Position numbers and translations under genes: made by a program
The notes under the pieces: generated by a model
Databases searched by the model: none
The model's input: only the letters and a program-made list of their open reading frames with translations
What the model was told of the DNA's origin: nothing
Source: Sediminibacterium sp.
GTDB lineage: Bacteria; Bacteroidota; Bacteroidia; Chitinophagales; Chitinophagaceae
Direction of reading: 5' to 3'
DNA length: 64,000 nucleotides
Assembly: GCF_019264485.1 (NCBI RefSeq)
Contig: NZ_JAHVAA010000012.1
Location: forward strand, 186,001-250,000
Shown here: piece by piece, positions 8,923-31,260 of the stretch
Layout of the letters: the number at the start of each line of letters is the position of its first letter
Position numbering within the stretch: position 1 is the first letter of the stretch

Positions 8923-9025
8923 GAAAACAGAAGAACAGAGAAACAGAGGAATAAGGAACAGAGAAAGTTAATCATCCCTATTTTCTCATTCCTCTGTTTC
9001 TCTGTTCGTTATTCTTCTGTTTTTT
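8922..9025. repeat. Fold-back repeat, AACAGAGA octad family (locus E)
   Basis: AAAACAGAAGAACAGAGAAACAGAGGAATAAGG ... reverse complement AAAAAACAGAAGAATAACGAACAGAGAAACAGAGGAATGAG. Left arm abuts TGA of 8293..8922; right arm overlaps the 3' end of 8986..9441. Confidence 0.85.
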
Positions 9026-11000: not shown

Positions 11001-11583
11001 AAGAAACAAGAAATGAAGGAACAAGGGGCAAGGAACAAGAATCAAGAAAAAAGTTGAGGGATTAGCTTCGTTTGAGCAGAATGGCAGACAGTATTTTAGT
11101 CAGTTGAATGGATTGGTTTATCAGACGGTTTCGTTCTGAAATTAAATGATCATCTGCTGGGATCAAAAGTAATTTTAGCCAAAAAACAGACTCTTTTGCT
11201 TCCCTTCGTGCTATTTTAAGTTTCATATTTTCATCCGCTTTGCCCAAGGGATCAGACGCCTCGATATAATTGGCCCCAATTGATGCAGATGATCGTAATA
11301 GTTGTTTTACATATTCGTGATTGATCCATTCTTTGCCTGCTATGGCACATAGATTGCGCACATCCATAGCAAACTGATAAAAGCGTTTTTGCAGTTCTTC
11401 TGACATGTTCCGAAACTAAAAGAAAGAGACATCGTTTCCCATAAAAAATACATAGATAAATACCTGCGAGACCCCGTAATTTTAATAGAAGAAAGGCTAA
11501 AAACAGGCGACGGAGGAACAAGAATTAAGATTCAAGATTCGATTTCCCTATCTCTTGATCCTTGACTCTTGTCTGTTGAATCC
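11001..11583. repeat. ORF-bearing fold-back element, NNNCAAG heptad family, between pyrR and pyrB
   Basis: Array 1 at 11001-11053 (GAACAAG GGGCAAG GAACAAG AATCAAG AAAAAAG), array 2 at 11515-11541 (GAACAAG AATTAAG ATTCAAG), inverted array 3 at 11549-11583 (reverse complement GACAAG AGTCAAG GATCAAG AGATAGG). Confidence 0.75.
11062..11406 (-). CDS. Four helix bundle protein (S23 / 23S rRNA intervening-sequence protein family; Avd-like fold)
   Basis: MSEELQKRFYQFAMDVRNLCAIAGKEWINHEYVKQLLRSSASIGANYIEASDPLGKADENMKLKIARREAKESVFWLKLL; SASIGANYIEA and ARREAKESVFWLKLL are family hallmarks. Confidence 0.85.
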   Translation of the reverse strand: MSEELQKRFYQFAMDVRNLCAIAGKEWINHEYVKQLLRSSASIGANYIEASDPLGKADENMKLKIARREAKESVFWLKLLLIPADDHLISERNRLINQSIQLTKILSAILLKRS

Positions 11584-13274: not shown

Positions 13275-13307
13275 TTTTAAATAAGCTGTCGTTTTGAATT
13301 GTAAGAA

Positions 13308-13852
13308 ACCACAGAGTTACACGGAGTATGACACAGAGTTTCACGGAGGATTAATAAACAACTCGTTTGATGCCGTTCTTTAGTGAGTTGACATGAAAGT
13401 TAATCAACAAGCCAACTTTACAATTACTGAGTTTTAAATAGGTAATCATTTGAGCAATATGAACGTCTGTAAAAGTTTCCACCGCTTTCACTTCAATAAC
13501 TATAGATCTTTCTACAAGAATGTCTATCCGATAACCTGTTTCAAGTTTTACCTCTTTGTATATAAGGGGCATTGGCACTTGCCTTTCTACAATAAATCCT
13601 GTTGTGAGTAACTCGTAATATAAGCAGGCTTCATAGGCAGATTCAAGTAAGCCCGGTCCAAGGTTACTATGTACTAAATAAGCCGCTTTTAATATCTGGC
13701 TGGTAATTATACTTTGTTGCATTTTACTTTTTCAACAAATCTATAACAAGTCCCTACGGTACAACCGATGTGCCATAGGCGTTCTAATATCCATCCAGCT
13801 ACTAAACAACCCTCAGTGTAACTCCGTGCCATACTCCGTGTAACTCTGTGGT
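13308..13852. repeat. ORF-bearing inverted-repeat element, CACAGAGTTA decamer family, between recF and a DUF721 gene
   Basis: Arm 13308-13352 ACCACAGAGTTACACGGAGTATGACACAGAGTTTCACGGAGGATT versus reverse complement of 13808-13852 ACCACAGAGTTACACGGAGTATGGCACGGAGTTACACTGAGGGTT: 40/45 identical, first 23 bp perfect; encloses the GxxExxY ORF. Confidence 0.85.
13351..13722 (-). CDS. GxxExxY protein (PD-(D/E)XK_3-like putative nuclease)
   Basis: MQQSIITSQILKAAYLVHSNLGPGLLESAYEACLYYEL...GYRIDILVERSIVIEVKAVETFTDVHIAQMITYLKLSNCKVGLLINFHV; LGPGLLESAYE and D-IEVKAVE signatures. Confidence 0.9.
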   Translation of the reverse strand: MQQSIITSQILKAAYLVHSNLGPGLLESAYEACLYYELLTTGFIVERQVPMPLIYKEVKLETGYRIDILVERSIVIEVKAVETFTDVHIAQMITYLKLSNCKVGLLINFHVNSLKNGIKRVVY

Positions 13853-13946
13853 AAAAAAGACTTCGGCATATACATGATTATTTAAAAACTGAGATGCTGA
13901 AACAACTCTCTGTAAGCAAGTCTTACCTTTTTTGTACTTTTGACGC

Positions 13947-14228
13947 ATGTCTGAATTCCATATCGGCGACGCTATCAGGGGCTTTTTGCACAAGAGTCAT
14001 TTAAAGAACGGTATTCGTGCGGTTCAGATTGAAGAGATATGGGAACAACTGATGGGAAAAACCATTGCGCGTTATACAGATAAAATACAGATCATTAACC
14101 AGAAATTATTCATCACCACCAGCGTTGGCCCTTTAAAGAATGAACTACTCTACCAGAAAACCCAGATTATTGAAAGGGTGAATGAGGCGTTTGGAGAGAA
14201 AGTGATTAGTGAAGTGGTGATACAGTAG
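13947..14228 (+). CDS. DUF721 domain-containing protein (DciA-like)
   Basis: IRAVQIEEIWEQLMGKTIARYTDKIQIINQKLFITTSVGPLKNELLYQKTQIIERVNEAFG. Confidence 0.8.
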   Translation: MSEFHIGDAIRGFLHKSHLKNGIRAVQIEEIWEQLMGKTIARYTDKIQIINQKLFITTSVGPLKNELLYQKTQIIERVNEAFGEKVISEVVIQ

Positions 14229-14339
14229 TCAGTAGTCAGTAGTCAGTAGTCAGTAAGGAAAACTCGCCTGTTCTTTTGGTTATTGTGCTATCTGCTTTTT
14301 TCACCTTTCACGTCTCACTTTTCACGTTTCACGTTTCCG
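14223..14339. repeat. Two facing heptad arrays: CAGTAGT x4 (14223-14250) and inverted GTGAAAC-type (14300-14339)
   Basis: CAGTAGT CAGTAGT CAGTAGT CAGTAGT CAGTA; reverse complement of right array GGAAAC GTGAAAC GTGAAAA GTGAGAC GTGAAAG GTGAAAA. Both overlap stop codons of the flanking genes. Confidence 0.85.
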
Positions 14340-20519: not shown

Positions 20520-20628
20520 CCTGCGGTTCACCTCTGCGTTCTCTCGTTCTCTGCGGTCCCTTCCTTCGTCAGGGTGACGTCAGGAACCCCACCGCAGAGA
20601 ACGAGAGGAAACAGCGTTTACGCAGAGA
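20520..20628. repeat. Fold-back repeat, CCGCAGAGAACGAGAGG family, copy 1
   Basis: CTCTCGTTCTCTGCGG / CCGCAGAGAACGAGAG perfect 16-bp stem; right arm 20590-20627 is identical to 21418-21455. Confidence 0.85.
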
Positions 20629-21363: not shown

Positions 21364-21456
21364 CTGCGGCTAACCCCAGCGCCCCCATGTTCCCTGCGGT
21401 GAACATTCGAGTAAGCTCACCGCAGAGAACGAGAGGAAACAGCGTTTACGCAGAGG
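21364..21456. repeat. Fold-back repeat, CCGCAGAGAACGAGAGG family, copy 2
   Basis: 38-bp exact match CACCGCAGAGAACGAGAGGAAACAGCGTTTACGCAGAG to copy 1; degenerate left arm CTGCGGCTAACCCCAGCGCCCCCATGTTCCCTGCGGT. Confidence 0.85.
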
Positions 21457-31136: not shown

Positions 31137-31260
31137 AAAAAACAGAAGAACAGAGAAACAGAGGAACAGACGAATGTTCAAGGGAAGAAGCAGTTAGACC
31201 ATAGAAATTATCCTATTTGGATATTTCTCTGTTCCTCTGTTTCTCTGTTCTTCTGTTTTA
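31137..31260. repeat. Fold-back repeat, AACAGAGA octad family, between ECF sigma and FecR genes (locus L)
   Basis: AAACAGAAGAACAGAGAAACAGAGGAACAGA ... reverse complement TAAAACAGAAGAACAGAGAAACAGAGGAACAGAGAAAT; right arm starts at the sigma TAA. Confidence 0.88.

Follow-up and report, generated by a model that had tools for sequence, protein, structure and literature searches.

The 64,000-nucleotide stretch of Sediminibacterium sp. DNA analysed here (contig NZ_JAHVAA010000012.1, positions 186,001 to 250,000; hereafter the window) contains, between recF and dciA, a small open reading frame (ORF) for a protein of the GxxExxY family, which is enclosed by two inverted arrays of short repeats. This locus raises the question of why a single putative nuclease gene lies between such arrays, and whether gene and arrays belong together. 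The results described below suggest, with a probability of roughly 0.6, that the element is a 'master' member, with an ORF, of a family of inverted-array hairpins, in a partnership that resembles that of REPINs with RAYTs but involves an unrelated PD-(D/E)XK enzyme.

Insertion and architecture of the element between recF and dciA

In the window, recF and dciA are separated by 676 bp between protein matches (13275–13946). The latter gene, initially annotated as DUF721, matches Pfam DciA ('Dna[CI] antecedent'). The host genome (3.64 Mb) was compared with all same-genus relatives in which both genes were found (17 loci), and the gap is 8–37 bp in every one of them. This result indicates that the element is an insertion. 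The possibility, raised in the initial annotation, that the recF-GxxExxY-dciA order is ancestral and fixed does not hold, because the relatives show empty sites. Extra intergenic sequence of about 33 bp and 94 bp lies outside the arms, so that the boundaries of the insertion are only approximate.

The element, about 520 bp in size, has a single gene enclosed by a pair of inverted arrays, whose degenerate heptamers (CRCNRAK) recur with a period of 9–10 bp. The left arm (13308–13352, plus strand), a type I array, reads CACAGAG-TTA-CACGGAG-TATGA-CACAGAG-TTT-CACGGAG behind an ACC tip, and the right arm (13808–13852, minus strand) has the outer tip GGT, which is ACC on the minus strand. The arms are built of CAC(A/G/T)GAG heptamers, which are separated by 3, 5 and 3 nt. 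Their inverted identity is 40/45, and the first mismatch does not occur until position 24. In 2000 dinucleotide shuffles, the gapped scores average 18 and do not exceed 30, whereas the arm pair scores 64; the repeat is genuine and well beyond chance. When a 17-mer of the arm is searched for with up to 3 mismatches, four matches are found in the window, all within these arms, while 0.07 are expected. The only enclosed ORF (13351–13722, minus strand) encodes a protein of 123 aa and is antisense to both recF and dciA. It starts 85 bp from the right arm, behind a leader (13723–13807, minus strand), and terminates with a stop codon that overlaps the left arm at its inner edge. The arm identity with its perfect first 23 bp, the sole ORF with a leader of about 85 bp, the position of the stop codon and the orientation opposite to both neighbours had all been described in the initial annotation, and the same values are obtained upon recalculation. 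No Rfam family matches the element, including its leader.

Association of GxxExxY genes with inverted arrays

A GxxExxY gene is present in 75 of the 148 Bacteroidota genomes sampled, and the scan of a genome collection gives 80 further loci under eight phylum labels, many of them in metagenome bins. In a contig labelled 'Rhizobium' (L150), the neighbouring genes match those of the Flavobacterium hemW site, and the contig therefore appears to be a contamination from Flavobacterium. At 93 of 108 usable GxxExxY loci, the flanks contain an inverted repeat that exceeds the 95th percentile of far flanks (about 5% for far controls). At least two CRCNRAK units are inverted on both sides of the gene at 84 of these 108 loci, compared with 1 of 96 far flanks and 0 of 29 RecF flanks, and the spacing of the units peaks at 9–10 bp. 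The association of GxxExxY genes with inverted-array elements is general. Inverted arrays are thus usual at other GxxExxY genes, and the concern that such genes elsewhere lack them is not borne out. At L215, L222 and L252, the GxxExxY element has, besides its enclosing arms, either a full hairpin or an additional array upstream.

The arrays and the gene also occur together at the genome level. A three-unit array pattern has 646 matches in the 75 genomes that carry GxxExxY, but 26 in the 73 genomes that do not, and at least one match is found in 48 carriers and 11 non-carriers (Fisher p 8e-10). This co-occurrence is also observed inside families that contain both kinds of genome (stratified permutation p 1.5e-4).

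Covariation of nuclease clade and array type

The host genome contains three GxxExxY genes, which share 35–49% identity with one another, and each of them has its own arm type. The type I array is represented by 89 unit-pair matches in 33 clusters, type II by 54 arms and type III by 20 arms, while reversed array patterns used as controls give no match in the host genome. ORF-less copies exist for each of the three types, and in the type II copies the partner arm lies at a nearly constant offset of 42 bp. Two ORF-less arms of the type II family, to which the GxxExxY gene L002 belongs, are located in the window at 20532–20559 (minus strand; C12:206532-206559) and 21417–21444 (plus strand; C12:207417-207444).

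The array type tracks the nuclease clade. On a tree of 159 nucleases, the array type (RAG or GAT) changes twice, whereas shuffling gives 16.3 changes on average and never fewer than 11, and finer array classes change 5 times, compared with 21.3 upon shuffling. The genome background does not explain this match, because ten genomes carry both types. Within genomes, protein identity correlates with arm similarity (rho 0.39, p 0.009), although this correlation may partly reflect duplicated elements. The arms at L300, L302, L314, L322, L324 and L330 consist of GGATT, GATT or similar units, and several of them have an outer tip like GTCTGAAC.

These results bear on the alternative that the arrays are host hairpins, such as terminators or nucleoid sites, or are moved by another enzyme, and that the nuclease gene is carried along as a passenger or serves to clear cruciforms. 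The ORF-less arrays of the 11 non-carriers and the retention of some sites across genera are in accord with this alternative. However, the array type follows the nuclease clade even within one genome, the matches are concentrated in genomes with the gene, and a RAYT is rejected as the mover, since the only Y1 (PF01797) transposase gene of the host, which is RAYT-like, is flanked by different palindromes. We regard this alternative as very unlikely.

Identity of the GxxExxY protein

The ORF matches TIGR04256 (E 4e-43; 146.5 bits, compared with a curated cut-off of 35) and PF13366 (E 2e-40), and is a clear member of the GxxExxY family. Its motif residues are located at about G24..E27..Y30, D67, E77-x-K79 and Q91xxxY95 (ORF numbering). 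The catalytic residues D62, E72 and K74 (domain numbering) are invariant in 159 of 159 relatives, and Q86xxxY90 is nearly so. The structure of the nuclease is modelled with a predicted local distance difference test score (pLDDT) of 95, and the closest solved folds are those of Cas4 SSO0001 (E 9e-4), LHK-Exo and lambda exonuclease, followed lower down by that of the Holliday-junction resolvase Hjc (ST1444). The D...ExK residues within a conserved fold agree with the PD-(D/E)XK-like assignment of the initial annotation, and the model indicates that the ORF encodes a minimal Cas4/lambda-exonuclease-like PD-(D/E)XK protein, with a presumed nuclease activity. It resembles Cas4, lambda exonuclease and Hjc in predicted fold and in the D, ExK and QxxxY residues, but it differs from them in that it is only about 120 aa long and gives no match in a sequence search against solved structures. 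No cas gene adjoins the window copy. The nuclease copies at the Flavobacterium hemW site are under purifying selection (median ratio of nonsynonymous to synonymous substitution rates 0.07). The open-licence literature, in which two papers contain the name GxxExxY, once each, yielded no account of GxxExxY linked to inverted arrays, and the same is true for PF13366, the array heptamers and S23p elements.

Orientation of the ORF and recognition as DNA or RNA

The nuclease gene is in the same sense as both neighbours at 76 of 99 loci and antisense at 6; the window copy is of this rare, antisense kind. The predominance of the same sense suggests either expression from the host operon or an action in RNA. 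The bias probably arises because insertions that keep the ORF have the gene expressed from the host operon. According to the other possibility, the two arrays would form a stem in the operon transcript; upon cleavage of this stem by RNase III or the nuclease, the loop with the ORF would leave the mRNA, as does the S23p intervening sequence (IVS) in 23S rRNA. The Coxiella 23S IVS, which has an S23p ORF and is excised by RNase III, contains GACAGAT heptamers (PMC4990558), and four-helix-bundle genes (S23p family) share the architecture described here. However, arm mismatches that are G.U-compatible on the sense strand are not in excess (190 vs 200, p 0.65), the window copy is antisense, the arrays conserve sequence motifs and not pairing alone, and Rfam gives no match. 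An RNA-level IVS is considered unlikely. The lack of a G.U excess favours recognition as DNA, whereas the sense bias of 76 to 6 would fit an action in RNA. The window element is similar to the 23S rRNA IVS in that it is small and has an inverted stem, one small ORF and heptamers. It is different in that it is intergenic and not in 23S rRNA, contains an ORF of another family than S23p, and shows no strand-asymmetric pairing signal.

Turnover of element sites

The gap between hemW and a cyclase gene was classified in 57 Flavobacterium genomes. It is empty in 5, contains solo RAG hairpins in 21, solo GAT hairpins in 12 and a nuclease element in 16, and contains a GIY-YIG ORF between other palindromes in 3. 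These states change 24 times on the short hemW tree, compared with a mean of 30.2 upon shuffling. Other element sites are common to several species and genera, and long vertical retention therefore also occurs. In the three genomes with a GIY-YIG ORF (L216, L232 and L256), the palindromes are of the type TCCTGAACTAGTTTCAGGA. At L202 (G281:C1, about 239208–239919), a second copy of the final 61 bp of hemW is present about 590 bp further downstream; it follows the nuclease element and precedes a dehydrogenase-like gene that has been inserted.

Turnover at the same site would also be expected of a homing-type element, in which the nuclease would cleave alleles that lack the arrays, or other sites, and repair would copy the element in, so that inheritance is biased without free transposition. 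The small, stand-alone nuclease, the GIY-YIG ORFs in the same gap and the lack of target-site duplications are compatible with such an element. However, ORF-less copies are numerous at unrelated sites, and the nuclease clade varies together with its own arrays and not with a target. Homing is considered quite unlikely.

A proposed REPIN/RAYT-like partnership

The preferred reading is that of a hairpin family with a dedicated nuclease. We infer that the nuclease would recognise the arrays of its own family as DNA, either as duplex or as extruded hairpin, and would cut or process them, upon which hairpins may be copied or re-inserted into short intergenic gaps by host replication and repair. The ORF-less copies would be kept up in trans, and the nuclease gene would be passed on mostly vertically, as in REPIN/RAYT systems.

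REPIN/RAYT appears to be the nearest working analogue. In both cases, inverted doublets that form hairpins are dispersed genome-wide, and one dedicated enzyme gene is present for each repeat family. In Pseudomonas fluorescens SBW25, three REPIN groups are each accompanied by a RAYT (PMC3116915), and this host likewise has three enzymes and three families. RAYT-bearing genomes hold more REPINs (PMC8049555), and here too the repeats are more abundant where the gene is present. In both systems, the enzyme genes are distinct within a genome and mostly vertical. The systems differ in that the enzyme is a PD-(D/E)XK protein here and not an HUH/Y1 (PF01797) protein, and in that the arms are short-period heptamer arrays with the ORF inside the arm pair. 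The element is not a member of REPIN/RAYT, because the defining HUH transposase is absent as a linked gene.

Several observations weigh against a partnership of this kind. Target-site duplications, which the initial annotation proposed to look for, give no signal (at least 4 bp in 9 of 66 elements, with 6.6 expected), and the element accordingly lacks this hallmark of a DDE-type miniature inverted-repeat transposable element or insertion sequence. No movement of the element is observed. The ORF-bearing copies of one genome share at most 80% protein identity among the pairs compared and none are near-identical; transposition of the ORF is therefore at best old or rare. Arrays are present in 11 of 73 genomes without GxxExxY. 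Finally, the loci were taken from the strongest family matches and some are at orthologous sites, so that the counts are not fully independent, and the array subtype labels were set after the arrays had been inspected.

The same kind of nuclease lies between matching repeats in many bacterial genomes, and these appear to form a family of repeat elements not described before, each with a dedicated nuclease. It is a tentative proposal, with odds somewhat short of even, that the hairpins owe their spread to a PD-(D/E)XK nuclease and not to a transposase, recombinase or reverse transcriptase, that each clade reads its own array code, and that the system represents a second independent enzyme-hairpin replicator besides REPIN/RAYT, in several phyla. 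If the nuclease spreads the arrays, the hairpins would replicate by means of an enzyme class that is not known for such a role, and the array specificity would be readable from sequence alone. GxxExxY is a common family for which no assigned function was found, and the clade-dependent DNA array is a candidate substrate. Many unexplained repeats of environmental bacteria would likewise gain a likely enzyme.

Four-helix-bundle genes and other arrays

The initial annotation placed the element in the same hairpin-array class as a four-helix-bundle ORF, with the nuclease in its place. The shared architecture is confirmed: at 29 of 38 loci, four-helix-bundle genes lie in inverted short-period arrays that exceed the far control, so that a class of elements with this architecture and either of the two ORFs does exist. 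The sense of these genes agrees with that of their neighbours in 29 of 35 cases. In contrast, a single array family with a swapped ORF is rejected. The CRCNRAK arrays belong to GxxExxY and are found at none of the 8 four-helix-bundle genes of the host, whereas four-helix-bundle genes have other, far more variable arrays, which are in line with the heptamers of the Coxiella IVS (PMC4990558). A single array family is also excluded inside GxxExxY, because every clade of nucleases is linked to an array type of its own.

All eight PF05635 genes of the host genome are located in differing inverted arrays. The PF05635 four-helix-bundle gene at 11062–11406 of the window lies between short-period arrays of the AACAAGAATCAAG type (flanks 11017–11047 and 11514–11580). 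More short-period arrays, with no obvious ORF, are present in the window at 14223–14255, 14299–14337, 8925–8963 and 31140–31258. The ORF-less short-period arrays of the window include CAGTAGT x4.7, TTTCACG x5.6, AAACAGAGGAACAGAG and an inverted pair of AAACAGAAGAACAGAG and TTTCTCTGTTCCTCTG.

A GIY-YIG protein as the third ORF of this array class in the host is rejected, as two of the small GIY-YIG ORFs are at tRNA genes and none lies within these arrays. These two ORFs, L103 and L104 (C12:64478-64684 and C3:34213-34419), adjoin tRNA genes and have a partial tRNA copy on the opposite side, a layout which suggests that the GIY-YIG ORF was inserted at tRNA genes.
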